Part shown: piece after piece, positions 9,122 to 53,604 of the stretch | How the letters are laid out: each line of letters starts with the position of its first letter | Position numbering within the stretch: the first letter of the stretch is position 1 | Notes under the pieces: model-generated | The model's database searches: none | Seen by the model: only the letters and a program-made list of their open reading frames with translations | What the model was told of the DNA's origin: nothing | Position numbers and translations under genes: made by a program | Source: Pirellulales bacterium | GTDB lineage: Bacteria; Planctomycetota; Planctomycetia; Pirellulales; Thermoguttaceae | Direction of reading: 5' to 3' | DNA: 60,266 nt | NCBI GenBank assembly: GCA_016935315.1 | Contig: JAFGRD010000144.1 | Location: 1-60,266, forward strand

Positions 9122-11614
9122 TCAAATCTGCCGGCTCGGCAAACTTGGCAACGCCGCCGGCCAATGGGCCCCGGCGGGGTCGATCCCCGGTGGCTCGTTC
9201 GAACGCAGCGGGGCTTGCCAGCGAAGGACGCGGCTGGCCTCAGGGCCCGAAGACGCCTCGCCGGCGAACTCCACCGCGCTGCGGACGACCCCCGCGATCG
9301 AGACGGCCTCGTCGTCGAGCACTTGCGGCGACCCGTCGGAACGGACCCACGCGGCGACAATCGCCTCGGGCGTGACCAGCGTTCCTTGGCCGGCCCAACT
9401 CAAGCTCCGCAGCACGACCTCGGGCGACTGCGGACCGGGAAAGCACAGCAGGCCGGTGCCGCGACGAGGCGCGAGGACGCAATCGGTCGTCTGAATCGAG
9501 ATCTCACCGGGAGGCCCCTCCAGCCGCCGACAATCGCACTCCAACAGGCCGCCGGCATCGCGCAGCGTGACCCGCGATGCCGCAATCAACACCGGCTCCT
9601 CCGACGTGGGGCAGTGGTCCAGACGCACCAGCGGCCCCGGCCCCAGGTGGAGCGTGTTGGCGACTTCCACCGACAAGGCCCCGGCCGTCCGGCAATCCAG
9701 CCCGGCCCCGACGCCCCGCAGCAGGCAGTCGCTCAGTTGCACGCGGCCGCTGGGCAACTCCATTTCCGCCCGGCTCCGATCGGTCGGATGTGTCCAGCGA
9801 ATGGCAACCGGGCGCTCGACGGCCGCCCGGCTCGCTCGACTCTGCGGATCCGGGGCCGAGCGAAAGGAGCAGCCGCGGAACGCCGCCCGGGCGGAGCTGA
9901 GGCAGATGACAGCACCGCTGTTCGGGCCCACATCGGAGGCGTCCGATCCGGCATGGACAAAGTCGATGTTCTCGAAGCACACGTCGTCCGCCGCGATCGG
10001 CAGCCCGGCACGGGGCACCAGCACGACCGGCCGCTCTCCCGGTTCGCCCCGCACCCGCTGGCCCGGGCGAAGCGGCAGGCTGTCGACCTCCAGAGGCGCG
10101 TCTGCCGCGAGCACGAGATCCCGTGGCCCCTGGGCCGTCGCCTGCGGCGGTTGCGGGTGTGCGGGCGAAGGTGATGGAGGGGTCGGCTGTTCGACCTCGT
10201 AGTGTGCCGGGAGCACGGAGTTTTGGGAAACCGGGTCTTGGGAAGCGGGATTCCGGGAGACACGGTCCTGGGAACCCGTGCCGTGGTTGCCCGCCGCCGG
10301 CCCTTGCCCAGAACTTTCCGGCCGGCGGGAAGCGGCGACGGCGTCTTCCGGTACCAGACTCGCTGTTGCCGGGCTTGGCACGGGGGCGCCCCGGCTTGCC
10401 GCCCATCTGTCAGCGAACGGAAGTCCGTCGCGCCACATAGGCCAGGCCATTGTGGCCGCGACGACGAGACAACCCGCCATTGCGGCCCACCGCCAGGAAG
10501 TGCGGTGCGACGGCCGGGACGGTCGCACGGCCGGACCGCGACGACCGGGCGGGCGATATGGCCGGGGTACGCACCGGATCGCCGCCGGGTTCCCGCGGCC
10601 GCCGGACGGATCAAGCATGGCTGCCAGCCGAGCCAGCGACTGGCAGCGGTGCCTCGGTTGGCGGTGGAGGCATGCCGAAACGGCCTCTGCCAGCGCGGTC
10701 GGCACCTCGGGGGCCAACCGCCGGAGTTCCGGGATCTTGGCCGTCTGGGCGGCCCGCAGCTTCGCCAGGCTGTCGCCTCCGGCAAGCGGCCCACGCCCGC
10801 AAAGCAGGTGCCACCAAACGCACCCGCACGAAAAGACGTCGCTTGCGATCGTCGGTGGCGTGCCCTCGGTGATTCGCTCGGGGGCCATGCTATCGAAGGC
10901 CTCGGGCGGCAAGTCGGCGTGGGCATATCCTTCCTCGGGCCGCAGCGCCGGGCGCAACCCGGGATGCAACAGCACGACGCGCCCCGCGTCGGTCAGCAAC
11001 AACCCCGAGACGCTCAGGTCGCCATGGCACAGGCCGACGCGTTCCAGTCGGGCCAAGGCGGCGACCATGGCCCGGGCGATCGTCAGCACCGTCTGCGGCG
11101 GAAACCGGCCGTAGCGGACCATCCACTCGGCCGCGCTCTGTCCCTCGACCCACGGCGAGGCGGCCCATAGTTGCCGGCCGTCGTCGCCGACCTCCGCGAC
11201 CGGGGCCAGGTTCTCGCAGCACAGCTTCCCGGAAACGGCGGCCAGCGCCTCGAGCCGCCCCAGCAGCCCGTCGGCCCGCCGCGAGGCCTCCGGCACCACC
11301 ATCAGCCGCACCAGCTCGGCGGAATCGACCCGTCGGGCCTGATACGCGACCGCATAGCCGGGCCATGGCAACGGGCGGCAGACCAGGTAGGGTCCCACCC
11401 GCAGCGAGGCCGCCCGGCCGGCGTTGATCTCGGCGGCCTGAAACGCCGTGAGGATTCGGGCCTGGGCCAGGGCGTCGACCCAGACCGACTCGAACCTGGG
11501 CAGGTCCCTGGCCAACCGCCGGACCCGCCGGCCCATCTGGCCAACTTGTTCGGCCGTGGCCAGACCGAGGCGCTGCAGCAGCGCGGCCAGTTGTGGCGGC
11601 GGTTGTTCCCGCAT
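9122..11614 (-). CDS. Membrane pseudokinase with C-terminal beta-helix domain
   Basis: An 830-residue protein with an N-terminal Ser/Thr-kinase-like fold (about residues 70-340), one membrane helix (AGCLVVAATMAWPMW) and a C-terminal extracytoplasmic region of short beta repeats resembling a right-handed beta-helix. The kinase fold is recognised from CHGDLSVSGLLL, MAPERI and SDVFSCGCV, but it is degenerate. The catalytic loop keeps HGD (197-199) while the metal-binding Asn position is Gly204. The DFG triplet is replaced by HPG (217-219), and no VAxK lysine is visible. It is therefore probably a pseudokinase that binds a partner rather than phosphorylating. The start at 11614 is inferred from where kinase-like coding begins; further upstream the frame looks non-coding. 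It is divergent from the NfeD gene. Confidence 0.75.
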   Translation of the reverse strand: MREQPPPQLAALLQRLGLATAEQVGQMGRRVRRLARDLPRFESVWVDALAQARILTAFQAAEINAGRAASLRVGPYLVCRPLPWPGYAVAYQARRVDSAELVRLMVVPEASRRADGLLGRLEALAAVSGKLCCENLAPVAEVGDDGRQLWAASPWVEGQSAAEWMVRYGRFPPQTVLTIARAMVAALARLERVGLCHGDLSVSGLLLTDAGRVVLLHPGLRPALRPEEGYAHADLPPEAFDSMAPERITEGTPPTIASDVFSCGCVWWHLLCGRGPLAGGDSLAKLRAAQTAKIPELRRLAPEVPTALAEAVSACLHRQPRHRCQSLARLAAMLDPSGGRGNPAAIRCVPRPYRPPGRRGPAVRPSRPSHRTSWRWAAMAGCLVVAATMAWPMWRDGLPFADRWAASRGAPVPSPATASLVPEDAVAASRRPESSGQGPAAGNHGTGSQDRVSRNPASQDPVSQNSVLPAHYEVEQPTPPSPSPAHPQPPQATAQGPRDLVLAADAPLEVDSLPLRPGQRVRGEPGERPVVLVPRAGLPIAADDVCFENIDFVHAGSDASDVGPNSGAVICLSSARAAFRGCSFRSAPDPQSRASRAAVERPVAIRWTHPTDRSRAEMELPSGRVQLSDCLLRGVGAGLDCRTAGALSVEVANTLHLGPGPLVRLDHCPTSEEPVLIAASRVTLRDAGGLLECDCRRLEGPPGEISIQTTDCVLAPRRGTGLLCFPGPQSPEVVLRSLSWAGQGTLVTPEAIVAAWVRSDGSPQVLDDEAVSIAGVVRSAVEFAGEASSGPEASRVLRWQAPLRSNEPPGIDPAGAHWPAALPSLPSRQI

Positions 11615-11954: not shown

Positions 11955-13511
11955 ATGAATCGGAACGCCTCTGTTTTCTCGCCGCCTGGCCGAGCGAAGA
12001 GGCCCGGGCCTTGGCTTCGGGCCCTGGGAGCCCTCTTGGGGATCTGCCTGCCGGGTGCAGTCGCTTCCCCGGCCGCCGACGACCCGCCGGAGCGGTTTTC
12101 GCACGGCGTGCTGATCCGCTTCGAGGGCCCCATCACCCCGATGCTCCAGCAGTATCTCTTCCGCAAGCTCGACGCGGCCGAACGAGATCGGGCGGATCTG
12201 GTGATCGTGGAGATCGACAGCCCGGGCGGGTTCGTCGATGCCAGCATTGCCATTGCCGAGCGTCTGCGGGACACGCGCTGGGCCCATACGGTGGCGTACG
12301 TGCCGCGCGAGGCGATCAGCGGGGCGGCGATTGCCGCCTTGGGATGCGACGAGATCGTCATGGCCCCGGACGCCCGCATCGGCGACGCCGGCCCGATCTA
12401 CCAGGGCGAAGACTCCCAATTCCGCCACGCGCCGGAGAAAATCCGCGACTATTTAGCCCAGACCGTCCGCGATTTGGCCGAGGCCAAGGGCCGCCCGCCG
12501 GCGATCGCCGAGGCGATGGTCGACCGCGACGCGGTCGTCTATCGGGTCAAGGACCGTCGGACCGGCCGGGAGACGCTCCTGAGCGAACGCGAGATCCAAG
12601 CCGACGCGGACCCGGACCGCTGGGAAAAGGTCAAAATGGTGCCCGAATCGGAGAAGGGCAAGTTCCTGACCGTCAACGGCAAGAGCGCCCTCGCGTTGGG
12701 CCTGGCCGACGCGACCGCCTCGGGCCGCGACGCCTTGCGCGTGCGCTACCGGCTCAGCGGCGAGCTGCGGATCGTCGAGCCCAGCGGCGTCGATACGGCC
12801 GTCTACCTCCTCAACCTGCCGATCGTGACGGGCCTGCTGTTCGTGATCGGCCTGGTGGCCCTCTACGTCGAGTTCAGTGCGCCGGGCATCGGCCTGGGCG
12901 GCCTGACGGCCGTGTTGTGTTTCGCCCTGTTCTTCTGGAGCCGCTTTCTGGGCGGAACGGCCGACTGGCTGGAGGTGATCCTGTTCTTGTCGGGGCTGCT
13001 GTTTCTGGCGGTCGAGCTGTTTGTGTTGCCCGGTTTCGGCGTGGCCGGGCTGACGGGCCTGCTGTTGCTGTTGACCAGTCTGATCCTGGCCGGCCAGACG
13101 TTCGTCATCCCGCGCACCGAGCAACAGTGGTCCGTGCTGACCGACACGCTGCTGGTCATCTTCGCCTCCGGTGGCGTCTTTCTGGTTGCGGCGGTGGTGC
13201 TGACGAAGTACCTCGGCGAGATCCCCGTGCTGGGCATGCTACAGCTCCGCCCGCCGGACCCGAGTGAGACCGGCCGCGGCGCCGGCGCGCCGATGGGACA
13301 ACAGGCGGGTCTCGAGCCGGGCGACCGCGGCGTGGCCGATTCGCCTTTGCGGCCGGCCGGCAAGGTGCGGTTCGGCCAGCAGTTCGTCGACGTGGTGACC
13401 GAAGGGCTGCTGGTGGACAAGGGCGCGACCGTCGAGGTCGTCAAGATCAGCGGCAACCGGGTGGTGGTGCGAGAAGTGTTACCGAAAGAGGAAGGAGGAT
13501 CCGCGAAATGA
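11955..13511 (+). CDS. NfeD-family membrane serine protease (ClpP-like)
   Basis: A 518-residue protein with an N-terminal signal segment and a ClpP-class serine protease domain (residues 50-250). The domain carries VIVEIDSPGG, the candidate nucleophile Ser122 in AISGAAIAALGCDEIVM, and DARIGDAGPI. A block of four to five membrane helices (about 285-420) follows, then a C-terminal OB-fold NfeD domain (GKVRFGQQFVDVVTEG). Full-length NfeD proteins cleave membrane-associated substrates, often stomatin-like partners; no stomatin gene is adjacent. The ATG at 11955 is preferred to a GTG four codons earlier. The last four bases overlap the next start (ATGA), showing translational coupling. Confidence 0.88.
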   Translation: MNRNASVFSPPGRAKRPGPWLRALGALLGICLPGAVASPAADDPPERFSHGVLIRFEGPITPMLQQYLFRKLDAAERDRADLVIVEIDSPGGFVDASIAIAERLRDTRWAHTVAYVPREAISGAAIAALGCDEIVMAPDARIGDAGPIYQGEDSQFRHAPEKIRDYLAQTVRDLAEAKGRPPAIAEAMVDRDAVVYRVKDRRTGRETLLSEREIQADADPDRWEKVKMVPESEKGKFLTVNGKSALALGLADATASGRDALRVRYRLSGELRIVEPSGVDTAVYLLNLPIVTGLLFVIGLVALYVEFSAPGIGLGGLTAVLCFALFFWSRFLGGTADWLEVILFLSGLLFLAVELFVLPGFGVAGLTGLLLLLTSLILAGQTFVIPRTEQQWSVLTDTLLVIFASGGVFLVAAVVLTKYLGEIPVLGMLQLRPPDPSETGRGAGAPMGQQAGLEPGDRGVADSPLRPAGKVRFGQQFVDVVTEGLLVDKGATVEVVKISGNRVVVREVLPKEEGGSAK

Positions 13512-13981
13512 GCCAAACGCGGGAAACATGTTGTCCGCCCTTTGAGCCGGGGCCTTGGGACGAGACGGAGATTACCTGGGAGAACAAGCGGTTCATCAAG
13601 GATCGCGTGCGGAGCTTCTTCCACATTCCGTTGAATTTCGCCTCGGTGATGCAGCGAAGTGTGGGCCTGATCGAGGCGGCCGACGCCCTGCCCGAGGAAA
13701 TGATCGTGCTGTGCGACGAAAACTCCCTCTGGGGCGCCGACGTCTACATCGACGTGACCCGAGACGTGCCCGAGGCCGAAATGGCCACCATCTCCGGCAC
13801 GTTCTTAAGCAAGGTCTTCGAGGGCCCCTACAAGAACGTGGGGCAGTGGATGCGCCAGATGAGCGAGTACGTCAAGGCGCAGGGTAAAGACCTGAAGAAG
13901 ATGTACTGCTACTACACGACCTGCCCGAAATGCGCCAAGCAGTACGGCAAGAACTACGTCGTACTGCTGGCTCAGGTGTAA
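13508..13981 (+). CDS. Conserved small protein with GyrI-like features and C-terminal CxxC
   Basis: A 157-residue cytoplasmic protein. The central part (VYIDVTRDVPEAEMATISG, then FEGPYKNVGQWM) resembles the small-molecule-binding GyrI/AraC-effector fold, in which a strand with an invariant GPY precedes a helix. The C-terminus has a CPKC pair followed by a conserved-looking YGKNYVVLLAQV, which could bind metal or be redox active. Family assignment is inference; no enzymatic motif is visible. Its start overlaps the NfeD stop by 4 bases and a stem-loop follows the stop, so it is the last gene of a two-gene operon. Confidence 0.75.
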   Translation: MSQTRETCCPPFEPGPWDETEITWENKRFIKDRVRSFFHIPLNFASVMQRSVGLIEAADALPEEMIVLCDENSLWGADVYIDVTRDVPEAEMATISGTFLSKVFEGPYKNVGQWMRQMSEYVKAQGKDLKKMYCYYTTCPKCAKQYGKNYVVLLAQV

Positions 13982-13993
13982 GCGCGTGGAAAG

Positions 13994-14401
13994 ATGACAC
14001 CTGAGGGGGCGGACCCCTTCTCTACTCAAAGGGGTCTGTTTCCCTCCGCCCGGCTGTCGCCCTTGGCCTACCCACGGGCAGATCGCTTGCGTCGCCCGGA
14101 CGGCGAATCGATAACAGCGGGTGTGCCGTTTGGGTTATATGGCCGATATGCGCCGGCCCTCCAACGGCGATCGATGCCATGCCCGCTCGCGGTAACGCGA
14201 GTCGCCAGGCGTGGCGGCCGACTCTTCTTCAGCGCCGACGACGGCTACGTACCGGGGCTGCGCGACCTGGAGCCGAAGACGTTCGCCATGGCCATTCCGG
14301 AGCCCGGCACGTGGACGCTGTTGACCACGGTCGGCATCGGCATCCTCGTTTGCGGCTTCCTCAGGCGAAGGCCCGTCGCTCGCCGGCGTCCTGGCGGCTG
14401 A
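13994..14401 (+). pseudogene. PEP-CTERM protein remnant
   Basis: The C-terminal 30 codons encode a textbook PEP-CTERM sorting signal: IPEPGTWTLL, a hydrophobic helix (TTVGIGILVCGFL) and an Arg-rich tail. Just upstream, RLFFSADDG resembles repeats found in large planctomycete surface proteins. The rest of the frame back to the ATG at 13994 has no signal peptide and overlaps a terminator-like hairpin, so a full exported protein is not encoded. It is best read as the 3' remnant of a longer exosortase substrate. A short expressed protein cannot be excluded. Confidence 0.45.
14012..14036 (+). terminator. Stem-loop after the NfeD operon
   Basis: GACCCCTT (14012-14019) pairs perfectly with AAGGGGTC (14029-14036) around a 9-base loop, followed by TGTTTCC. 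It begins 31 bases after the stop codon at 13981. The T-tract is short, so termination efficiency is uncertain. Confidence 0.5.
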
Positions 14402-40380: not shown

Positions 40381-40598
40381 GATATCGGCCGCCCCATGGC
40401 CTGCACGAGTCCTAAGCGGACGGGGCCGGCAGGATCTGCGGCAGGGGGGATCGGGCGTCCCGCCTGTTTGACTCGGCACGTCCGGATCGTTATGATCGGG
40501 GAATCTGGAATCTCGGCCCAAATGAAGGGGAACCCGATGCGCGTACGCGACGGCCGCCTTCTCGACGCCCCCGCCCATCCCGACCAGGAGAACCCGTG

Positions 40599-41657
40599 AT
40601 GGAAGACCACAAGAACACCCGCCGCCAGTTCATCAAGGCCACCTCGGCGGCCGTCGCCGGGGCGTCGCTCGGCTCGTTGGCCACGGCCAACGCCGCCGAA
40701 GTGAAGCCCGAAACCGTCCTGAACCACAACCCGAAGATGGGCTACCGACGACTCGGCAAGACCGGGTTCATGATCTCGGAGGTCAGCCTCGGCGGACACG
40801 GCGGCGAGAAAGTGGAAGACCGCGTGCCCGTGCTGGAGAAGGCCGTCGAGCTGGGTATCAACTACGTCGATAACAACATCGACGCCGAGTGCAACCTCTA
40901 CGGCGAGGCCATGGCCAAATCGGCCGGTGCCCGGCGCGACAAATGGTTCATCGGTTTCGCTTCCTGGCCCCAGAAGATCACCACCGAGTATGAGGAGAAC
41001 CTCTCGCCGGCCGGCATGATCAAGACGATCGAGGACCGGCTGAAGTCGTACCGCACCGATGTGCTCGACATGTGGCGGCCGGTGGGCGCCACCTGGGGAA
41101 AAGGCCAAACGAACATCTCTTCGATGCTGATGGTCAGCCAGAAGACGCTCGACATGGTCGTCGAGGTCTTCGAGAAGGTCCACCAGCAGGGCAAAGTCCG
41201 CTATCTGGGCGTTTCGGCGCATAACCCCAAGGTGTTCCACCGCGTGTTGGGCGAGTATCCGCAGTTCTCCGTGATCATCTTCCCGTACCTCTTCCTGACC
41301 GAGGAGTTCGGCGGCAACAGCCTGTTGAAGCTGGCCCAGGAAAAGGACATCGGCGTGATCGGGCTGAAACCGTTCGGGGCGGGAACCACCTTCGGGATCA
41401 AGCCGCGGGAGATCCAGGGCACCGTCGACAAGCGGGCCCGCGTGCTGGTCCGCGAAATGCTCCGCGAAAAGCGGCTCTCGGCCGTGATCCCCGGCGTGAA
41501 CATCCCCGAACAACTCGTCGAAAACGTCCACGGCTCGTACGAACGGGACCAGCCGAAAACGCCCGAGGACGAACAGGCCTTGAAAGAGTGTACCCGAAAC
41601 TACTACGCAAACCTCACGCCCGAATACCGATGGCTGCACAAATGGGAGCAGGTGTGA
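40599..41657 (+). CDS. Tat-exported aldo/keto-reductase-like protein with altered active site
   Basis: A 352-residue protein with a twin-arginine signal (TRRQFIK at 7-13, then a hydrophobic Ala-rich h-region ending near NAAE). The remainder is an AKR barrel: YRRLGKTGFMISEVSLGG, GINYVDNN with Asp91 and LYGEAM with Tyr101. The usual Lys of the tetrad (after RRDKWFI) reads Gly/Phe, and the usual His (in DMWRPVGA) reads Trp/Arg, so classical NADPH-dependent reduction is doubtful. A ribosome-binding site GGAG precedes the ATG. Its stop overlaps the tetraheme cytochrome start (GTGA), suggesting a periplasmic redox pair. Confidence 0.85.
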   Translation: MEDHKNTRRQFIKATSAAVAGASLGSLATANAAEVKPETVLNHNPKMGYRRLGKTGFMISEVSLGGHGGEKVEDRVPVLEKAVELGINYVDNNIDAECNLYGEAMAKSAGARRDKWFIGFASWPQKITTEYEENLSPAGMIKTIEDRLKSYRTDVLDMWRPVGATWGKGQTNISSMLMVSQKTLDMVVEVFEKVHQQGKVRYLGVSAHNPKVFHRVLGEYPQFSVIIFPYLFLTEEFGGNSLLKLAQEKDIGVIGLKPFGAGTTFGIKPREIQGTVDKRARVLVREMLREKRLSAVIPGVNIPEQLVENVHGSYERDQPKTPEDEQALKECTRNYYANLTPEYRWLHKWEQV

Positions 41658-42148
41658 ACGCCCAGCGGCACTGGGGCCCATGGTGGTTGCCGGTCGCGTC
41701 GGCGGCGCTGCTGCTTGGGATCGCAGTCTGGGCACCGGGCTTCGGGATTGGCTGCGAAGGGGACACCGAGACCGGCGGAGCGGCGGAAGAGTCGGGCGAG
41801 GAGACCAGTCCTTTCAGCGCCAACGCGGCGTGCTATGTCTGCCACATCCCGTTCGTCCGCGAGGAGCTGGGCAAGGTCCACCTGAAGGCCAAGGTGCCGT
41901 GCATCGAGTGTCACGGGCTCAGCGCCGCGCACGCCAACGACGAGGACATCGGAGCGACGCCGCCGGACGTGGTTTTCCAGCGCAAGCAGATCGACGCCTC
42001 GTGTGTCAAGTGCCACGAAACCCACGACGCCCCTGCCCGCCAAGTGATTGCCCGCTATCAGGAGAGAAAACTCTCGTCGGAGTCGCCGGCCGTTTGCACC
42101 GACTGCCACGGCAGCCACAAGATCGAGCAGCCGGCGGAGCAAGAGTAG
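41654..42148 (+). CDS. Membrane-anchored tetraheme cytochrome c
   Basis: A 164-residue protein with an N-terminal membrane helix (about 12-27) and four CxxCH heme-binding motifs: CYVCH (60-64), CIECH (83-87), CVKCH (117-121) and CTDCH (148-152). Extra histidines between them can serve as distal ligands. The size and anchor recall NapC/NirT-type or small NrfB-like electron carriers, but the spacing is not diagnostic of either. The GTG at 41654 is preferred because it overlaps the upstream stop and has GGGAG just before it. It likely passes electrons between the quinone pool and a periplasmic oxidoreductase. Confidence 0.88.
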   Translation: MNAQRHWGPWWLPVASAALLLGIAVWAPGFGIGCEGDTETGGAAEESGEETSPFSANAACYVCHIPFVREELGKVHLKAKVPCIECHGLSAAHANDEDIGATPPDVVFQRKQIDASCVKCHETHDAPARQVIARYQERKLSSESPAVCTDCHGSHKIEQPAEQE

Positions 42149-42241: not shown

Positions 42242-45100
42242 ATGCCGATCGCGTCTTCCGACGACCCTCGCGTTCCAGAACCTGATACGAGTCCCCGCGT
42301 TGCCCTGTCGGCGGTCGTCATCCTGTCGGCGGCCATGGCGGCCGCCTGGATTGCGTCCGGCTCGATCGGCCTGCTGGCACACCCGCTGCGCCACGCGCTG
42401 ACCTGGGTCGCCCTGGGCGTGGCGATCGTGTCCGGCTTGCCGCGGCGGGATGCCTCGTGGCCCCGGTGGGCGCTGCTGGTCGCCGCGGTGTTGGCCGGTC
42501 TGGTGATGACCGCCGCGTCGCTGCCCGCCGTTAATGTGTTGGCCGTGGCCCTGGTGCTGGCGGCTTTGGTCGGGCCGGCGCCGGGGCTGCAGGGTCGGGT
42601 CGTGGCGACGGCGGCCCTGGCCGTGGTCGCGCTCGGCATCTTCCGGACGGCGCAGACCTCGATTCCGGTCGTCTGGCTGGCGGCCGACGCCGTTGGAGAA
42701 GTGTTTGGGCGGCTGGCCGGGCGGCTGGCCGGAGAGCCGCTCTGGATCGGGTCCCTGTTCGGGGGCGTCGATTTCCTGGTGCTGATGGCGGCCCTCTACG
42801 TCGGCTGGCTGCTGCAGACGGCGCCGCCGCGATGGCCGCGAGCCCTCTACGCGGCGGCGGCCATCTTGCTGGGACATCTGCTCTACCTGGTCGTGCTGGC
42901 TTTCTCGAACCGGCTGCTGGCCGCCCTGCCCGACCCGGTGCTGCCGGAGATTACCGATATCAACCAAATGGGCGTTTGGACCTGGGGCAACGCGGCCCGG
43001 TCGCTGCTGCCTTGGAACCTGCCGGTGCTTGCCGGGCTGGTTCATGTCGCAATCGCCGTGGCCATGTTCCGCTGGGCCCGGTGGCCGGCGGAATCGGGGG
43101 AAGCACCCGAGCCGGACATGGAGAAGGGCCCATCGCAAACCGGGCCGCCCCGCCGGCGCGTGCAGCTTGTGCTGCAATACGGTCCCGGGCTGCTGGCCGT
43201 TCTGATACCGATCGTGACCGTGCTGGGTCTGAGCAGATCGACGTTGAAAGGCAAAACGGTCGTGGCCTACGCGGAAGGCTACGTCAACTGGAACAAGCCG
43301 GAGCATCGGCAGCATGGGACCGCCGGTGAGCCGTCGCCGCAAGAGCGGCCGACCGATCCCGCCCGGCGAGACGCCCCCACCTACGGCACGTTGCGGTGGT
43401 TCGTCGAGAGCCTCGGCGGCCGATTGCTGATCTCGAATGATCTGTCTGAGCAGGATCTGGCCGCGGCCGATGTGCTTCTGCTGATCCATCCCGACCGGCC
43501 TTGGCCCGAGGAGACCCTGAAGCGGGTGAAGCAGTATGTCGACGGCGGCGGGGCGCTGCTGGTAGCGGCCGAACCGACCGTGGCGCGACACGCCGCCGGG
43601 CAGACGTCCAGAAGCAGCTTCAACGACGTGCTGAGCGCGCTGGGAGCGGCCGTGCGAGTTCGAGACGACACGGCAGTCGCCGCAGTGGCCCAATGGGAAC
43701 ACGCCCTGCAGCCGCTGGCGCATCCGGCCACCGAGGGCATCGACGACCGGCGAAACCACTTCGGGCTGGTGAGCAGCTCGTCGATCGAGGTCCGCTGGCC
43801 CGCCCGGCCGCTGCTGGTGGGACGCTTCGGCTTCGGCGAGCCGGGCGATAGCGGGGCGGCGGAATACGACTCGGGTGAGGAACTGGGCGATCTGGTGTTG
43901 GCTGCCGAACAGCGCATCGGGCGGGGACGCGTTGTCGTGCTGGGTGGCGCCGCCGCGCTGCGCGATGACTTCCAGGCCGTCGCCTATCCGACCACCGGAC
44001 GCCTGTTGGCCTACTTGGCCGACAAGCCGGGCAGCCCGCAGGACTGGTGGCGCCAGACGCTGGGGCTGCTGGCCATGGCGGCACTGGTGGGGCTGCTGTT
44101 CTGGCAGCGGGTCGGGGCCCAGAACACTGCGGTTCAGAAGGCGGGGGCTCAGGAAGCTGGCGTTCAAGAGACTAGTGAGTCTGCCGGCGTTCAGCCGGCG
44201 GCGCAGCGGGCAGCGGCGATCCAGGTGGCCGTGGTCGCCGCGGCGCTGGCCGTCTCGCTGGTCTGTTGCGTACACCTGAGCCTGGTCACGGGTCGCGTGT
44301 TGCCCGACGGGAAGCGGCTGCTGCCCAACCAGGTGGCCTACATCGATGCCTCGCACCTGGAGGCCTACAGCAGCGACACCTGGGACGCTTTCGGCATCGG
44401 CGGCCTGGGCCGCACGCTGATTCGCAACGGCTTCCTGCCGCTGCTGCTGCCCGAGCTGAGCCCAAAGCGGCTGGAGGGCGCAAAGCTGCTGATTTCGATC
44501 GGCCCCGGGCGACGTTTTTCCGCGGCCGATCGCCAAGCCGTGAAACGTTTCGTGGAGGCAGGCGGGACGTTCCTCTGCATGGTCGGGGCCGAGCAGGCAC
44601 GCGCCAGCCGGGAGCTGCTGGGCGAGTTCGGATTCTACGTGCCCACCTCGCCCGTGCCGCCGAGCGAGATCGTCCGCGAGCCGGCGCCGTTGGGCATGGG
44701 CTATTTCCGGACGCTCTACTTCAACGAGGACGGTGTTCAGGCGTCGATGCTGTGCTACTCAAGTTGGGAGGTAATCTGCACGGAGCAGGACGGCTGGAAG
44801 ATGGCCCAGTGGTCGGACGGAATCACCGACGTACCGTTTGTCGTCAGCCGGCCCGTCGGACGCGGCACGGTCGCCGTCATCGCCGACACCTACGTGGCGA
44901 CCAACCAGAACCTGGAAACGGCCGAAACGGCGTTTGCCGAGAACGTCGATTTCTGGCGTTGGTTTCTTAGTCGGGTGACGGATCGGCCCCCGTGGACACC
45001 CTCGAAGCAGGACGAACCAAAACCGCCGAGTCCGCCCGATCGGCCCGCGGCCGAGGCGGTGCCCGCCGACGACTCGGCGAACCGGGAGGCAGCACCGTGA
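42242..45100 (+). CDS. Giant membrane protein: exosortase-like helical core lacking catalytic residues, two GATase-like domains
   Basis: A 952-residue protein. The first 340 residues form eight or nine membrane helices. Two soluble GATase/DUF4350-like domains follow, with a membrane segment (about 605-700) between them. Domain 1 contains ADVLLLIHPDRPWPEETLKR and YVDGGGALLVAAEP; domain 2 contains LLISIGPGRRFSAADRQAV and FVEAGGTFLCMVG. The helix arrangement around GSLFGGVDFLVLMAALYVGW and ILLGHLLYLVVLAFS parallels the exosortase core, but the Cys and Arg positions read Phe/Gly and Tyr. It overlaps the next gene by one base (TGATG). The exosortase-like reading is inference; the organisation of helices plus GATase-like domains is seen directly. 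Confidence 0.7.
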   Translation: MPIASSDDPRVPEPDTSPRVALSAVVILSAAMAAAWIASGSIGLLAHPLRHALTWVALGVAIVSGLPRRDASWPRWALLVAAVLAGLVMTAASLPAVNVLAVALVLAALVGPAPGLQGRVVATAALAVVALGIFRTAQTSIPVVWLAADAVGEVFGRLAGRLAGEPLWIGSLFGGVDFLVLMAALYVGWLLQTAPPRWPRALYAAAAILLGHLLYLVVLAFSNRLLAALPDPVLPEITDINQMGVWTWGNAARSLLPWNLPVLAGLVHVAIAVAMFRWARWPAESGEAPEPDMEKGPSQTGPPRRRVQLVLQYGPGLLAVLIPIVTVLGLSRSTLKGKTVVAYAEGYVNWNKPEHRQHGTAGEPSPQERPTDPARRDAPTYGTLRWFVESLGGRLLISNDLSEQDLAAADVLLLIHPDRPWPEETLKRVKQYVDGGGALLVAAEPTVARHAAGQTSRSSFNDVLSALGAAVRVRDDTAVAAVAQWEHALQPLAHPATEGIDDRRNHFGLVSSSSIEVRWPARPLLVGRFGFGEPGDSGAAEYDSGEELGDLVLAAEQRIGRGRVVVLGGAAALRDDFQAVAYPTTGRLLAYLADKPGSPQDWWRQTLGLLAMAALVGLLFWQRVGAQNTAVQKAGAQEAGVQETSESAGVQPAAQRAAAIQVAVVAAALAVSLVCCVHLSLVTGRVLPDGKRLLPNQVAYIDASHLEAYSSDTWDAFGIGGLGRTLIRNGFLPLLLPELSPKRLEGAKLLISIGPGRRFSAADRQAVKRFVEAGGTFLCMVGAEQARASRELLGEFGFYVPTSPVPPSEIVREPAPLGMGYFRTLYFNEDGVQASMLCYSSWEVICTEQDGWKMAQWSDGITDVPFVVSRPVGRGTVAVIADTYVATNQNLETAETAFAENVDFWRWFLSRVTDRPPWTPSKQDEPKPPSPPDRPAAEAVPADDSANREAAP

Positions 45101-48100
45101 TGCGACTGTGGATGGGCGTAGCCCTGCTGGCCGGTTCGTGGCTGTTGGGTCTGAGCTACTACTACCCGGCCGATGGCCTGGCGTGGGTGCTCGTGGTGGC
45201 CTTCGGCACGGTGCTGCTGGGCGGGAGCATCCGGCGACTGCCGCCGCGACGCGAGTTGGCGATCGCTCTGGTGCTGCTGCTGCCGGCCGTGGGATACGCG
45301 TCGTGGCCGGTGAAGGCCGCCCCGCTGCTGATCGCGGCCGGCCTGGCGATCGAGTTGTTGCCGATTCCCCGGCGGTGGCCGCGCTGGCTCGGCCGCGGGG
45401 CCATGGCCTCCGGCACGGTATTGCTGGTCCAGTCGCTGGCGATGGTTTTCTACGCCAGCCAGACCGCACGCTCGCACGAGTTGCCGGGGCCGCTGGTGGA
45501 AATGCTGGCCGCCATCGCCCGCCTGTTGGGCGTCGATGCGGCGGCCGACGGCTCGGCCGTCGTGATGCACTCGATCCGTCAGGTCCATCGCCTGGGGGCG
45601 ACCTGGGAGCTGCTGATCGATCCGCCCACGTGGTGTTTCTTCGTCGGCTCGCTGGTGCTGTTCGGCCTGACGGCCTGGGGTAATCTGCCCGCGGGCCGCC
45701 GATGGCCGGCCTGGATCGATCTGCTGCGAAGGCTGGCGGTGGTGCTGGTCGTCTGGTTGCCGATCCGCGCCGGACTGATGATGGGTCTCTACGCGCATCG
45801 GGTGCTGCGGACCGACGCCGAGTTGCCGCTGCACGCGATGAACCAGTTCCTCTCGCCGTGGGTTTTGCTGCTGTTGCTGCTCGGGCCGGTGCTGCTGCTG
45901 GCATGGGGGCAAAACGCCTTTTCCGGGAAGAGCCGCCCGTCCGGGGACGAGCCTTCGGACGAGGCCTTCGGCGGTGAGATCGCAAACGGTCCCAAGCACA
46001 GACCCGTGCCCCTTGTTCTGCGCGACCTCTTGCCGGTGATGCTGGCCGTGGCCGTGCTGACCTGGGGCGTGGCGTGGGATCCGGTGGGAACGCGCAAGGC
46101 CGGGCGGGTGATGGTCGTCGAGCGCCACTCCACCTGGGAGCCCACTTCCAAGCCCTACGACACGACCTGGTACGGCCACGACTGCGGCTACAACTACGCG
46201 GCGCTGTACGACTATTGCGGCCAGTACTACCAGATGTCGCGACTGAGCGAGTCGGAGAAGATCGACCGCCGACGGCTCGACCAATGCGACGTGCTGGTGA
46301 TCAAGACGCCCACCGCCCGGTACTCCCGGGAGGAAGTGGACGCCGTGGTGCGGTTCGTCAAGCGGGGCGGCGGGCTGTTGCTGGTCGGCGACCATACCAA
46401 CGTTTTCAAATGCGGCACGTACATGAACGACATCACGCGGAAGATGGGCTTCGTCTTTCGCGACGACCTGCTGTTCGGCACGGGCGATTCCCCCTACGAG
46501 CAGTCGTATCGTCCGCCGCAAGTGCCGCATCCGGTGGTGCAGCACCTCCCACCGACCGATTTTGCCGTTTCCTGTTCGATCGATCCGGGCCGTAGCTGGG
46601 GCCGGGCGGCGATCCGCGGCACGGGCCTGTTCAGTCTTCCGCCCGACTATCACCGCTCGAACTACCATACCGTCCCGCAGTTGCGGCCCGACATGCGCTA
46701 TGGCGCGTTCATCCAGCTCTGGTCCACGCGCTTCGGCGACGGCCGCGTGTTGGCCTTCACCGACTCGACCATCTTCTCCAACTTCTGCGTCTTTCAACCC
46801 GGCAAGGCCGAGTTGTTTCGCGGGATGCTCGAGTGGCTCAACCACGGCGACGCCCTCGGCGATCCGCGGCCGTGGCTGGTGGCGCTCGGGACGGTGTTGC
46901 TGGCGGCGGGGCTCTGGTTGGCGCGACACCGGCTCGGCGCCTGGCTGGTCCTGGTGGCGGCCGGGACGTGTGGCTGGGTGCTGGCCTCGGTGGCGGTCGC
47001 CGCGCTGGGGCGCGCGGCGATGCCCGTGCCTGAGGTGGTCCGCCCGTTGCCCCGGGTAGTGATCGACCGAACCACCTCGGACGTGCTGCTGAGCAAGGGG
47101 GCCTACATCCAAGGCGCGGGCGAAGGCTACGGCTTGTTTGAGCAGTGGATCCCGCGACTGGGATGCTACACGATCCGCGGGCGTGGCGAAGAGGCCTTTT
47201 CGGGCGAGGTGCTCGTGGCGATCTGTCCCAACCGCTCGGTGTCGCCCCGGTTCCGGCAGCGACTGATCGAGTACGTCGAGGGGGGCGGAAAGCTCCTGGT
47301 GCTCGATTCGCCCGAGAATACGGCGTCTACGGCCAACAGCCTGCTTTGGCCGTTCGGGCTGTCGATCGTCCACGGGCCGCAAGACGGGTGGCAGCGAGGC
47401 GTGTTGACGCTGACGGACGATTGGCCCGGCATCGAGCTTTCCGGGGCGTGCGAAGTGGCCGGCGGCCGGACGATTGCCCGGCTCGCCGACCGATCGGTGG
47501 GCGCCGTCGCCCACTGCAAGAAGGGCGCCGTCATGGCCGTCGGCTTTGCCTCGGCGATGAACGACGCGAGCTTCGGCTACGCTTGGAACTCCCAGCCGGC
47601 GGCCAACACGCTGTTCACCTACGACACGTACGTCCGCTTCAACGTCCAGTTCGCCTTGCTGCGGTCGCTGGCCAGCGGCGAGCCGGTCCGCGCGTTCCAT
47701 ACGGGCCACGTGGTGATCGATCGCACGGTTTCCGAGGTGGCGCTGCCGGAGCCCAACACGGTTCCGGAAGGCGACACGGGCTTCGGCCTGGCCGAGATGT
47801 GGTTGCCGTATCTGGGCTATTCGACCGCGCGAGGCAGCGGCGACGAGGCGTTTCGCGGCGAGGCCCTGGTGGTCTTCCTGCCGAGCCGCCCGGGGGACGA
47901 GGCCTTTCGCGACCGCCTCCAGCGATACGTCGCCGCCGGAGGCAAGCTGCTGCTGGTCGATTCGCCGGACAATGAGGCATCCACGGCCAACGACCTGCTG
48001 GAGCCTTTCGGTCTGACCATCGACCGCGACACGGTGCCGCAAGGTCGGCTGTTGCTGGATCGCGACGAAGACCGGTCGCCGTGGCCGAACACGGAGATCG

Positions 48101-48360
48101 ATCCGGCCTGCCGGGTCGGTGGCGGCCGGCCGTTTGCCTGGGTCGGCCCGACGCCGGTGGGCGCCACGGTCCGGCACGGCCGAGGCGCGGTCACGGCGGT
48201 CGGTTGCGGCAAGTCGCTGGCCAACGCGGCCTTGCGGGGCAGTTGGGACCTGCCCCCGCCGGCGAAGAGTCTGGTGCCCTACGACTTGCTCACGGCAGTG
48301 GTCCGGGCCCTGATGACCGACCAGCCGGTGGCCAAGTCGATGCCTAGCGTGTCGGATTGA
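45100..48360 (+). CDS. Giant membrane protein: exosortase-like core with Cys/Arg/His, fused to repeated GATase-like domains
   Basis: A 1086-residue protein. Residues 1-270 are about eight helices containing Cys179 (PPTWCFFVGSLVLFG), Arg223 (WLPIRAGLMMG) and His245 (ELPLHAMNQFLSPW). The spacing of 44 and 22 residues, each residue at a helix edge, is that expected of the exosortase/archaeosortase triad. The next domain (about 335-590) is GATase/DUF4350-like (CDVLVIKTPTARYSREEV, GGGLLLVGDHTN). After two more helices come two tandem copies of one domain (nucleotides 47058-47700 and 47710-48360), both starting VVIDRT and both with STAN.LL.PFGL. ATG 45100 or GTG 45097 (7 bases after GGGAGG) may be the start. 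A peptidase/transpeptidase role is inference. Confidence 0.75.
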   Translation: MRLWMGVALLAGSWLLGLSYYYPADGLAWVLVVAFGTVLLGGSIRRLPPRRELAIALVLLLPAVGYASWPVKAAPLLIAAGLAIELLPIPRRWPRWLGRGAMASGTVLLVQSLAMVFYASQTARSHELPGPLVEMLAAIARLLGVDAAADGSAVVMHSIRQVHRLGATWELLIDPPTWCFFVGSLVLFGLTAWGNLPAGRRWPAWIDLLRRLAVVLVVWLPIRAGLMMGLYAHRVLRTDAELPLHAMNQFLSPWVLLLLLLGPVLLLAWGQNAFSGKSRPSGDEPSDEAFGGEIANGPKHRPVPLVLRDLLPVMLAVAVLTWGVAWDPVGTRKAGRVMVVERHSTWEPTSKPYDTTWYGHDCGYNYAALYDYCGQYYQMSRLSESEKIDRRRLDQCDVLVIKTPTARYSREEVDAVVRFVKRGGGLLLVGDHTNVFKCGTYMNDITRKMGFVFRDDLLFGTGDSPYEQSYRPPQVPHPVVQHLPPTDFAVSCSIDPGRSWGRAAIRGTGLFSLPPDYHRSNYHTVPQLRPDMRYGAFIQLWSTRFGDGRVLAFTDSTIFSNFCVFQPGKAELFRGMLEWLNHGDALGDPRPWLVALGTVLLAAGLWLARHRLGAWLVLVAAGTCGWVLASVAVAALGRAAMPVPEVVRPLPRVVIDRTTSDVLLSKGAYIQGAGEGYGLFEQWIPRLGCYTIRGRGEEAFSGEVLVAICPNRSVSPRFRQRLIEYVEGGGKLLVLDSPENTASTANSLLWPFGLSIVHGPQDGWQRGVLTLTDDWPGIELSGACEVAGGRTIARLADRSVGAVAHCKKGAVMAVGFASAMNDASFGYAWNSQPAANTLFTYDTYVRFNVQFALLRSLASGEPVRAFHTGHVVIDRTVSEVALPEPNTVPEGDTGFGLAEMWLPYLGYSTARGSGDEAFRGEALVVFLPSRPGDEAFRDRLQRYVAAGGKLLLVDSPDNEASTANDLLEPFGLTIDRDTVPQGRLLLDRDEDRSPWPNTEIDPACRVGGGRPFAWVGPTPVGATVRHGRGAVTAVGCGKSLANAALRGSWDLPPPAKSLVPYDLLTAVVRALMTDQPVAKSMPSVSD

Positions 48361-50166: not shown

Positions 50167-53100
50167 ATGATCGCGCGACGTTCCACCCTGATTTTGCCGT
50201 GGTTGCTGGCCGTTTCGACCGGATGGGCCGCCGCGCCGCCGAAGGTCAACGAATCGGCCCGAGACATCCCAGTGGCCTACCGGGCCGACGTGCTGGTGGT
50301 CGGCGGCGGGACGGGCGCCGTTTCGGCGGCGGTTGCCGCGGCCGAGCAGGGGGCCAAGGTCTTTCTGGCCGCTCCGCATCCGTACCTGGGCGACGACATG
50401 ACGGCCACGCTGCGGCTCTGGCTGGAGCAGGGCGAGGAGCCGGTCGCGCCGCTGGCCCGGCGGGTCTTCAGCGACCCCAGTCAGACCGGCGCCGGGCCCG
50501 ATCCAAACCGGCTCCCCTTCCGCTATGAGACGGACGTGCCCAGTGCGCCCAAGCACAAGGACACCAACCCGCCGTCGCGGCTGACCGACGGCCGCTGGGC
50601 CGACGCACCCTCGGAAAGCGTGCAATACGACGGCGACGTGGCGATCACGGCCGATCTGAAGACGCCGCAGCCGATCCAGGAAGTCCGGCTGATGTTCTTC
50701 CGCCGCGTGGCGAGCACGGCCGAGGACAACTTCGACGTCAAGGGGCTGACCGTCTCCACCAGTGACGACGGGCAAATCTGGAGGCAAATCGACTCGGTCG
50801 AAAGCCGGCCGTTTTCCAGCGAGTACGGCACGTTGACGGTGCGAGTCGGCGGGCCGGCGCGGTACGTGAAGCTCGCTGTGAGGAAGCCCGAAGCCATGAC
50901 CCGCACGCTGCTGGGCGAAATCGAAATCGTCGCCCCCGCGCCGGACGCGCCCGCAACACCGGTCGCCAAGCTTCCGCCGCCGCGTCCGATGCACGTGAAG
51001 AAGACGCTCGACGACGTATTGTTGGCGGCGGGCGTCGAGTTTCTCTACAGTTGCTACGCCACCGACGTGTTGCGCGATGCGGCCGGCAACCCCAGCGGCA
51101 TCGCCATGGCCAACCGCGCCGGGCGCCAGGCGGTCGTGGCCAAGACGATCGTCGACGCCACCGACCGGGGACTGGTGGCGCGGCTGGCCGGCGCCAAGTT
51201 CCGGCCGTATCCCTCCGGCGCGCACACGTTTCGGCGCGTGGTGATCGGCGGCGAGGCGCAAACCGGCGAGAACCTCGCCTCCCGAATCATCACACCGCCG
51301 TTCCGGGGACCGTATCCGAACCAGGCAGGCACGTCCGGCGGCACGTTCGAGATCATCGAGTACACGCTGCGGCTTGCGATGCACGACGACGGCTACGCTT
51401 CCTGGGCCGCCGCCGAGCAGCAGGCCCGCACGATGACCTATCATCCCGAACAGCAGTTCACCTCCGACGTGCTCTTCGAGGTGCCGCCCGACGCAATGCA
51501 CGGCCGCCAGTCCGTGGACGGGCCGTGGACGGGCGTGGAGAACGTGTCGCTGGGGGCGTTTCAGCCGGCCGAGGTGCCGCGGGTGTACGTGCTGGGCGGA
51601 TGTGCCGACGTCTCGCGGCCGCAGGCCGAAAAGCTGCTGCGGCCGCTGGCGCTGATCGACCTGGGCGCCCGACTGGGCAAGGCCGCGGCGGCCGAGGCGA
51701 AGTCGTTGCCGGCCCCCGGAGGCGTGAAGCTGCCCGGCGCCGAAGCGCCCGACGCCGTAGCCACGGGCGAAATCCGCGAGATCCTCCGGGGCGTGCGTCC
51801 CACGCAAGAGCTGCCGACCATCCGGCAAGACGCCCGGGCGCTGCCCGTGCTGGGCCGCTACGACGTAGTCGTGATCGGCGGGGGAACCGGCGGCGCGCCG
51901 GCCGGCATCGCCGCCGCCCGCCAAGGGGCCAAAACCCTGGTGGTCGAGTACCTGCACGGCCTGGGCGGCGTCGGCACCATGGGGGCGATCTCCAAGTATT
52001 ATTGGGGCAACCGCGTCGGCTTCACGGCCACGATTCCCGGCGGCGGTTCCTGGGTCATCGAGCAGAAGATGGAGTGGTACCGCACCGAGTTGCTCAAGGC
52101 CGGCGCCGACGTCTGGTTCGGCACGATCGGCTGCGGGGCGATGGTCCACAACCAGAACGTCGTCGGCGCGGTGGTCGTAACGCCCGGCGGCCGCGGCGTC
52201 GTGCTGGCCAAGACGGTGATCGACGCCACCGGCAACGCCGACATGGCCGCCGCCGCCGGGGCCGAGTGCATCTATACCGACGCCTCGGAGTTCGGCATGC
52301 AGGGCACCGGTCTGCCGGGCCGCAGGCTGGGCGGCGCCTACAACAACACCGATTTCACCATCACCGACGAGACCGACCTGGTCGACGTCTGGCAGATGTT
52401 CGTCTATTCCAAGAACAAGTACCCCGACGCCTTCGACCACGGCCGGCTGATCGACACCCGGGAGCGGCGGCGGATCGTGGGCGATTTCACGATCACGCTG
52501 CCCGACCAGGTCAACGAGCGGACGCATCACGATTCGGTCGTCCGGGCCTGGAGCAACTTCGATACGCACGGCTACACGATCGATCCCTACCTGCTGCTGG
52601 AACACCCGGAGCATCGGGGCATCGGGGTCTACATTCCCTATCGCAGCATGTTGCCGAAGGGGCTCGACGGGATCCTGGTGATCGGGTTGGGCATCAGTGC
52701 CCATCGCGACGCGGTGCCGCTGATCCGCATGCAGCCCGACATCCAGAACGGAGGCTACGCCGCCGGCGTGGCCGCCGCGATGGCCGCCGAACAGGGGACC
52801 GCGCCGCGGAACATCGACGTCCGCAAGCTGCAGGAACACCTGGTCGAGATCGACAACCTCCCCTCCAGCGTGCTGGAGGACGAGGATTCGTATCCGCTGC
52901 CCGACGAGAAGATCGCCGAGGCCGTCGCAAGCATCAAGGAGGGCCGTCCCGGCGCCGCCGTGATCCTCACCCACCCTCAAAAGGCCCTGCCGATGCTGGA
53001 GAAGGCCTTTGCCGAGGCCGAAGGGCCGGACAAGCTGGCCTACGCCCGGGCTCTGGGCGTGATGGGCCGCAGCACGGGGCTGGAACTGCTGGTGGCCGAA

Positions 53101-53604
53101 GTCCGCAAGACGCCGCAGTGGGACCAGGGCTGGAACTACCGCGGCATGGGTCAGTTCGGCGCGGCCCTCAGCCCGCTGGACAACCTGATCGTCGCCGCCG
53201 GCCGCACCGGCCAGCAGGCGGCGGTGCCGGCGATCCTCGAAAAGGCCGAGCTGCTGACGGCCGCGCACGACTTTTCGCACCACCGGGCGGTCGGCCTGGC
53301 GCTGGAGCTGATCGGTGACCCGGCGGCCGCCGCGCCGCTGGCCGCGTTGCTGAAAAAGCCGGGAATCAGCGGCCACGTGCAGACCACGGTCGACGAGGCC
53401 ATCCAGCGCGGTGCCCCCGGCGGAACCAACGCCGAGCAGACCCGCCGCGAGTCGCTCCGCGAGCTGCTGTTGGCCCGGGCCCTGTATCGCTGTGGCGACG
53501 ACAACGGCTTGGGCAAAAAGACGCTGGAGGCCTACACAAAAGACCTGCGCGGGCATTTGGCCCGGCACGCCAAGGCGGTGCTCGAGGCGGGCGCCTCGCA
53601 GTAG
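50167..53604 (+). CDS. Exported double FAD-dependent oxidoreductase with inserted discoidin-like and HEAT-like regions
   Basis: A 1145-residue secreted protein with a signal peptide (residues 1-22). It contains two FAD-binding units of the FAD_oxidored type. The first Rossmann motif GGGTGAVSA is at 46-54 and the second, IGGGTGGAPAG, near 570-580, followed by GLGGVGTMG. The first unit is interrupted at about 115-255 by a beta-rich insertion that looks like an F5/8 type C (discoidin) domain (ARYVKLAVRKPE, VRLMFFRR). The last 200 residues are short helical pairs resembling HEAT repeats. Substrate unknown; many planctomycete relatives sit near polysaccharide-degradation genes. It stands alone, with a palindromic repeat upstream. 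Confidence 0.85.
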   Translation: MIARRSTLILPWLLAVSTGWAAAPPKVNESARDIPVAYRADVLVVGGGTGAVSAAVAAAEQGAKVFLAAPHPYLGDDMTATLRLWLEQGEEPVAPLARRVFSDPSQTGAGPDPNRLPFRYETDVPSAPKHKDTNPPSRLTDGRWADAPSESVQYDGDVAITADLKTPQPIQEVRLMFFRRVASTAEDNFDVKGLTVSTSDDGQIWRQIDSVESRPFSSEYGTLTVRVGGPARYVKLAVRKPEAMTRTLLGEIEIVAPAPDAPATPVAKLPPPRPMHVKKTLDDVLLAAGVEFLYSCYATDVLRDAAGNPSGIAMANRAGRQAVVAKTIVDATDRGLVARLAGAKFRPYPSGAHTFRRVVIGGEAQTGENLASRIITPPFRGPYPNQAGTSGGTFEIIEYTLRLAMHDDGYASWAAAEQQARTMTYHPEQQFTSDVLFEVPPDAMHGRQSVDGPWTGVENVSLGAFQPAEVPRVYVLGGCADVSRPQAEKLLRPLALIDLGARLGKAAAAEAKSLPAPGGVKLPGAEAPDAVATGEIREILRGVRPTQELPTIRQDARALPVLGRYDVVVIGGGTGGAPAGIAAARQGAKTLVVEYLHGLGGVGTMGAISKYYWGNRVGFTATIPGGGSWVIEQKMEWYRTELLKAGADVWFGTIGCGAMVHNQNVVGAVVVTPGGRGVVLAKTVIDATGNADMAAAAGAECIYTDASEFGMQGTGLPGRRLGGAYNNTDFTITDETDLVDVWQMFVYSKNKYPDAFDHGRLIDTRERRRIVGDFTITLPDQVNERTHHDSVVRAWSNFDTHGYTIDPYLLLEHPEHRGIGVYIPYRSMLPKGLDGILVIGLGISAHRDAVPLIRMQPDIQNGGYAAGVAAAMAAEQGTAPRNIDVRKLQEHLVEIDNLPSSVLEDEDSYPLPDEKIAEAVASIKEGRPGAAVILTHPQKALPMLEKAFAEAEGPDKLAYARALGVMGRSTGLELLVAEVRKTPQWDQGWNYRGMGQFGAALSPLDNLIVAAGRTGQQAAVPAILEKAELLTAAHDFSHHRAVGLALELIGDPAAAAPLAALLKKPGISGHVQTTVDEAIQRGAPGGTNAEQTRRESLRELLLARALYRCGDDNGLGKKTLEAYTKDLRGHLARHAKAVLEAGASQ

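Follow-up and report, generated by a model that had tools for sequence, protein, structure and literature searches.

Contig JAFGRD010000144.1 of the Pirellulales bacterium assembly GCA_016935315.1, a stretch of 60,266 nucleotides referred to here as the window, carries two adjacent forward-strand genes, A and B, which are the subject of this work. Gene A (42242..45100) encodes 952 amino acids (aa) arranged as a polytopic N-terminal domain, a GIFT/DUF4350 domain, two transmembrane (TM) helices and a second GIFT-like domain. Gene B is one open reading frame from the ATG at 45100 to the stop at 48360 (1086 aa), as the original prediction, made from this DNA, had proposed, and the stop codon of gene A overlaps the ATG of B by one base (TGATG). 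The layout of A is that of B, a membrane core plus GIFT/DUF4350 domains. B begins with its polytopic N-terminal region and a single TM helix; these are followed by a GIFT/DUF4350 domain, then a pair of TM helices, and finally two GIFT-like domains. Both the polytopic start predicted earlier (residues 1-272, 45100..45915, supported by hydropathy and by the helices of an AlphaFold2 (AF2) model) and the three soluble GATase-like domains behind it were recovered, the latter as GIFT-like domains. An extra TM helix (residues 306-325, 46015..46074; AF2 and sequence analysis) lies ahead of the soluble part. Domain 1 (about residues 335-585, 46102..46854) and domain 2 (47095..47712) were located with Pfam and phmmer, their borders being set by eye, and are separated by the TM pair seen in the hydropathy (46867..47001); self-comparison revealed that domain 3 (47695..48357) is a copy of domain 2 (43.5% identity, E 8e-48). 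B exceeded the Pfam cut-offs for DUF4350 (67.1 bits, cut-off 30.4), ABC_transp_aux (52.7, cut-off 34.7) and IFT52_GIFT (36.2, cut-off 27.2), and in phmmer its soluble part matched IFT52 (5fmr) at E 9.8e-4 and, at E 0.018-0.04, chains of beta-galactosidase or glucosaminidase. The first 300 residues gave no Pfam match, and an NCBIfam scan of B gave none above the cut-off. Among 29 relatives only one (L006) could be aligned to B over its full length.

GIFT/DUF4350 domains also occur in another kind of membrane system, and A-B could be a transporter-type module or one for membrane remodelling, comparable to GldG or arCOG01314/MoxR/vWA, in which the DUF4350/GIFT proteins would be accessories of an energised machine and the core would be unrelated to exosortases. 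Archaeal DUF4350 proteins encoded with vWA and AAA+ genes have been proposed to have a role in a secretion complex (PMC5898192). However, B reached only 12.7 bits against the 389.85-bit cut-off of the GldG model TIGR03521, the ten recurrent neighbours that were scanned, a minority of all neighbours, included no ATP-binding cassette (ABC) or MoxR ATPase, and the core of B matches exosortases in register, as described below. We therefore consider such a module quite unlikely.

Gene A is a near-constant partner of B. In 83 stretches read around relatives of B, several of which represent the same contig twice, A adjoins B in 74. Of the remaining nine, five open within B or shortly ahead of it, two represent a single contig on which A was found, and two (L159 and L205) are unexplained. 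Relatives of B were present in 44 of the 101 genomes of the family defined by GTDB (E 0.001), and relatives of A in 39. Outside the family no convincing relative was found in 397 genomes of the class, the scoring there being limited to six candidates per genome; weak matches occurred in 22 of these genomes, and the six loci that were read looked unrelated. The named GTDB collection yielded 62 loci, all titled metagenome-assembled genomes (MAGs), mainly from Planctomycetota.

The original prediction regarded the first 270 or so residues of B as an exosortase core with Cys179, Arg223 and His245 as its catalytic set. The codons are indeed at 45634..45636, 45766..45768 and 45832..45834, and the spacing of 44 and 22 residues is close to that of the three canonical exosortases of the window's own genome, L001-L003 (Cys-Arg 45, Arg-His 21). 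It does not resemble that of the archaeosortase ArtA, whose catalytic residues C173, R214 and R253, as given in PMC9263693, are 41 and 39 residues apart. Conservation was assessed in an alignment of 68 B sequences from the GTDB family, from other planctomycete MAGs and from two MAGs titled Lentisphaerae/Lentisphaeria. Arg223, on a TM helix equivalent to the exosortase Arg helix, is present in 68/68, as expected from the original prediction. Cys179 is present in only 23/67 and His245 in 13/68, and in the 30 aligned family sequences, including that of the window, the counts are 11/30 for Cys179, 30/30 for Arg223 and 13/30 for His245. All three residues occur together in 7/68 sequences, all inside one 15-row branch of the tree; thus, Cys-Arg-His at exosortase spacing is not a family feature of B. 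In a comparison set of 32 canonical exosortases from the same GTDB family, the catalytic Cys, Asn, Arg (R293) and His (H314) are each present in 32/32, even though identity to the first sequence drops to 29%. Nor does B retain the Asn of N-x-x-R: position 220 is Leu in 51/68.

The position of the Cys differs as well. In the AF2 models Cys179 lies inside a predicted TM helix (residues 175-195), whereas the exosortase Cys lies in the loop before that helix. The topologically equivalent place in B is formed by residues 172-175 (L-I-D-P, 45613..45624), with D174 in 63/67 and P175 in 66/67 and no Cys among the residues listed there. Neither the Pfam exosortase family PF09721 nor the NCBIfam exosortase models matched B, even at E 10. 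An active exosortase, cleaving or transferring C-terminal sorting signals with Cys179, Arg223 and His245, would be in keeping with the 44/22 spacing against the canonical 45/21, the invariant Arg and the similar predicted topology. Free variation of the Cys or His among homologues had been named beforehand as refuting, and both do vary freely, which by that measure refutes exosortase catalysis by B. Taken with the misplaced Cys and the missing hidden Markov model (HMM) match, this makes an active enzyme of that type almost certainly wrong, and as judged from the alignments B is not an exosortase enzyme. Other positions are near-invariant, among them W169 (45604..45606; 67/67), D174, H126 (65/66) and R124 (64/66).

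Despite the loss of the catalytic residues, the membrane core of B is probably a divergent exosortase fold, since its AF2 model has the same order of elements as that of an exosortase and the best profile match falls in the corresponding register. Residues 1-334 of B were modelled from a 64-sequence alignment (predicted local distance difference test (pLDDT) 87.9, predicted template modelling score (pTM) 0.83), and the canonical exosortase L001 from a 32-sequence alignment (pLDDT 84.0, pTM 0.73). In both models, one helix precedes three short strands and a four-residue helix, after which come three TM helices, the middle one bearing the invariant Arg; the N-terminal halves correspond more loosely. 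At the three-strand segment of B (residues 146-166, 45535..45597), G144, A147 and G151 are spaced as G225, A228 and G232 of the exosortase, and they are kept in 64/67, 46/67 and 57/67 of the B family, respectively. In an ungapped 22-column profile scan, the top of 88,704 matches (score 17.4; the reversed profile did not exceed 12.3) was at offset 81, which is the register implied by the topology and one that hhalign had shown before. At a width of 28 columns this match again ranked first, and at 16 columns second. The exosortase-like core claimed earlier is in this respect upheld in element order and register; it finds no backing from HMM matches and little from hhalign.

A second feature of these loci lies outside A and B themselves. 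A scan for periodic cysteines in the 83 stretches detected heptads (CPxxxTx) in 21, a CxPxT type (pentads, hexads or longer units) in 10 and low-complexity noise in two (L147 and L149), which were excluded from the partners; some of these stretches represent one contig twice. At the same threshold, none of 32 canonical exosortase stretches contained periodic Cys (159 kilobases (kb) versus 962 kb scanned); at a laxer threshold (four Cys, period 7) one of these controls, L041, matched, and on inspection it contained no Pro-Thr heptads. Where complete, the heptad and CxPxT products have signal-peptide-like starts, as judged by eye. The heptad frames contain 10-77 units and 4-14% Cys, and of five repeat proteins scanned, two carry GEVED and three DUF7901. 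When each locus was counted once, the heptad gene was on the strand of A in 22/22 loci and directly upstream of A in 21/22, at gaps of 4-322 bases, with overlapping open frames in L158 and L196. In L153 the heptad gene lies beyond B, and in L259 the contig ends on the A side and B is not seen. The B proteins linked to heptads fall in a single branch of the tree (support 99/97), which has 25 rows, 18 of them linked; the seven others have no heptad in the available DNA, some through contig ends. The loci L153 and L185, both with A, B and a heptad gene, come from MAGs titled Nitrospira sp. and Candidatus Nealsonbacteria, and misbinning or transfer is likely because their B proteins fall among planctomycete sequences on the tree.

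The heptad was also searched for at the genome level. Of 392 genomes of the phylum, three new ones matched at E 1e-12, none of which has a contig in common with the query sources; in one the repeat is followed by A-B, in one by A, and in one the contig ends 11 bases past the repeat. Within the family, four genomes gave strong matches (58 bits or more); every one of them carries two A-B pairs, one of which adjoins the repeat. These four genomes supplied query rows, so the result indicates only that no strong array lies away from a pair. In the other 15 of the 19 matching family genomes the score was at most 49.4 bits. Their short loci (15, of about 1.6-3.2 kb each) contained neither A nor B; 13 of them matched again, mostly with other period-7 repeats, and one (L219) is heptad-like with CPxEKTK units. 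The best-supported context of A-B is the export of Cys/Pro-rich repeat proteins, and this context is strongest in another clade than that of the window.

Closer to the window, the CxPxT type is the relevant one. In five loci, including that of the near relative L113, a CxPxT gene is convergent to B at a distance of 118-1896 bases. At E 1e-10, CxPxT repeats were found in 34 of the 40 family genomes that have A or B at E 1e-20 versus 6 of the 61 without, and counted by genus in 26/27 with A or B. The genome of the window itself contains four CxPxT-type Cys-rich repeat proteins with 9-23% Cys (L239 4094-4789, L240 3937-4413, L241 3399-4049 and L242 2576-3589), all on other contigs. In L242, CAPATC repeats occur together with TV-rich ones that look similar to those of YTV cell-wall proteins. 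When ten Cys-rich proteins were scanned, no family for the repeats was found above the cut-off except in L193, and this match to Major surface glycoprotein (30 bits versus 22) was put down to composition. An NCBIfam scan of five Cys-rich proteins likewise found no family for the repeats.

The remaining genome offers other partners for the sorting signals that had been associated with B. At E 10, four matches at three places disclosed three canonical exosortases, none in the window's contig, with neighbours that look exopolysaccharide-type by eye. Genome-wide, 48 PEP-CTERM tails exceeded the cut-off (47 by their own score and one only with its neighbours), again none in the window's contig, and the natural partners of these tails are the three canonical exosortases located elsewhere. 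The tail proposed at 14245-14401 scored 13.7 bits, below the 20.7-bit cut-off. The neighbour labelled a GT-C glycosyltransferase had no significant Pfam or NCBIfam match and belonged to no cluster found in more than two of the 83 stretches, leaving the suggested link of B to this neighbour and to PEP-CTERM sorting unsupported. Gene B is followed by a 559-aa membrane protein with a possible ATG at 48369, eight bases past the stop of B; this protein matched no family significantly, and it falls in no cluster larger than two stretches. Further along, positions 50167-53604 encode a 1145-aa flavin adenine dinucleotide (FAD) oxidoreductase with F5/8-type and HEAT-like parts, whose BLAST cluster lies near B in 8/83 stretches. 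A small multihaem cytochrome c-like protein (Cytochrom_c3_2, 41588-42148) is encoded directly before gene A, and a Tat-signal-like aldo/keto reductase (40596-41657) upstream of that.

Three further genes recur around relatives of B. An NtrC-type regulator lies near B in 13/83 stretches, some of them the same contig twice. A haemerythrin-like gene is found just past B in 9/83 stretches (about 6 distinct genomes), assigned from the L100 copy only (13181-13627), and a cysteine-synthase-like gene (PALP) one or two genes past B in 9/83 stretches (about 7 distinct genomes), assigned from the L094 copy only (10321-11391). The latter would fit a demand for cysteine. That these two genes recur nearby, together with the Cys content of the heptad frames (4-14%), could also mean that the Cys-rich partners are metal or redox buffers instead of envelope structures, with A-B as part of that response. 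However, the regular spacing of Pro and Thr (Cys and Thr being fixed by the choice of segments) and the GEVED domains on 2/5 scanned proteins fit a surface protein better, and we regard buffering as highly unlikely.

Starting from what is observed, namely the pair, the loss of the Cys and His with the Arg kept, the element order of B and the Cys-rich gene link in relatives, we propose that A-B is a retooled, Cys-less exosortase-fold pair that handles Cys/Pro-rich envelope proteins, and we give this proposal an even chance. In the scheme we envisage, A and B would form a paired inner-membrane complex. Each subunit would consist of an exosortase-fold core minus the catalytic Cys, with extracytoplasmic GIFT/DUF4350 domains on further TM helices. 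For B, the predicted topology of five TM helices before the strands, three after them and one before GIFT domain 1 would put the strands and GIFT domains outside. Exported tandem-repeat proteins rich in Cys, Pro and Thr might be held, anchored or assembled as they leave the membrane, the GIFT domains serving as outer arms. The conserved residues Y118, T122, R124, H126, W169, E/D170, D174 and R223 make a candidate site for binding or for chemistry other than Cys transpeptidation. A membrane pair next to a gene for an exported, Cys-packed repeat protein suggests an undescribed way to handle envelope proteins.

Several observations weigh against this proposal. With respect to the fold, whole-profile hhalign with trimmed alignments gave B a weak score of 24.9, equalled by 1/60 reversed-permuted and 17/60 forward-permuted decoys. 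The hhalign probability was 43.6% for one untrimmed alignment, 19.0% with the order swapped and 2.9% after trimming, and because the results changed with trimming they were not used as proof. Searches of the PDB with both models found no solved structure in support: the best Foldseek E values were 0.44 and 0.28, with nothing usable, and the best VIA-align Z scores were 5.6 and 6.7, a range the tool calls common. A sequence search for a solved exosortase structure found none. In the 22-column scan of gene A, a different register came first with 18.9, and the match in the expected register ranked second with 14.8, less than the 15.0 of the reversed control; for this reason we only infer an exosortase fold for the core of A. 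With respect to the partners, the family heptad search was circular in that its four strong genomes had provided query rows. At E 0.001 the CxPxT counts were 37/40 genomes with A or B versus 14/61 without, by genus 4/13 without A or B still had the repeat, and the co-occurrence is inflated by kinship and includes the five query-source genomes. The genome of the window has no heptad match at E 0.001. No Cys-rich gene lies beside A-B in the window, so there the link to Cys-rich proteins is indirect.

The conserved polar residues also allow an enzymatic alternative, in which A-B would carry out another transfer reaction, for instance on Thr or Cys of the repeats, by means of Arg223, H126, E/D170 and D174. 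The near-invariance of R124 (64/66), H126 (65/66), D174 (63/67) and R223 (68/68) and the Thr- and Cys-rich composition of the repeat partners agree with this. Gene A weighs against it, however. In a 40-column scan, run without a reversed control and the sole width at which this happened, the expected register of A ranked first, so that its G175 coincides with the Gly that never varies in the exosortase C-S-G. In this fitted register A has neither the Cys (Phe at position 173 in 53/64) nor the Arg (Val, Leu, Ala, Gly or Ile at position 218 in 61/64), and an invariant Tyr215 (64/64) falls on the Asn of N-x-x-R. A retooled enzyme thus seems rather unlikely to us.

Returning to the proposed envelope-handling pair, B is like the exosortases (PF09721, EpsH type) in predicted element order, as compared with the exosortase of the window's genome only, and in the Gly-Ala-Gly spacing before the active-site region, and like exosortases and the archaeosortase ArtA in its one invariant Arg on the penultimate TM helix. 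It differs from exosortases and ArtA in having no conserved Cys, no third catalytic residue and no HMM match, and A-B differ from them in their added GIFT domains, the twin gene and the Cys-rich repeat link in relatives. The soluble domains of B, above the Pfam cut-offs, are like those of DUF4350/GIFT proteins such as IFT52 and GldG, whereas A-B carry two or three copies on a polytopic membrane core in a paired cassette. In the literature searches made on DUF4350, planctomycete or inactive exosortases, YTV and Cys heptads, no paper described A-B by title or abstract, and at that level none described an assembly factor for Cys/Pro-rich planctomycete envelope proteins.

The repeat partners are exported and Cys-rich, like the planctomycete YTV cell-wall proteins described in PMC8567305 and PMC10632474; according to the former, Cys-rich YTV proteins were found in cell-wall preparations. 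The envelope of the genus Planctomyces is reported to be sodium dodecyl sulfate-resistant and to consist of disulfide-stabilised protein rich in Pro and Cys (PMC3035269); the same source notes that comparable envelope data are missing for P. limnophilus. A wall protein of Isosphaera has been described as devoid of Cys or Pro (PMC3072084), so that a system of this kind could not be universal. The suggested link of A-B to planctomycete envelopes rests on this likeness in composition. It is conceivable, though improbable in our estimate, that in Planctomycetota and relatives A-B represents an undescribed system for envelope assembly, with two non-proteolytic exosortase-fold GIFT proteins exporting, anchoring or cross-linking the repeats, and, jointly with this, that the Cys-Pro heptad and CxPxT genes lie behind the Cys/Pro-rich, disulfide-stabilised envelopes of some planctomycetes.

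The exosortase fold is known as a Cys protease and transpeptidase. If the proposal is true, A-B would be a case in which this fold, stripped of its catalytic Cys, serves anew as part of a paired membrane complex, and the A-B genes would provide a genetic handle on the Cys- and Pro-rich envelope proteins of planctomycetes.

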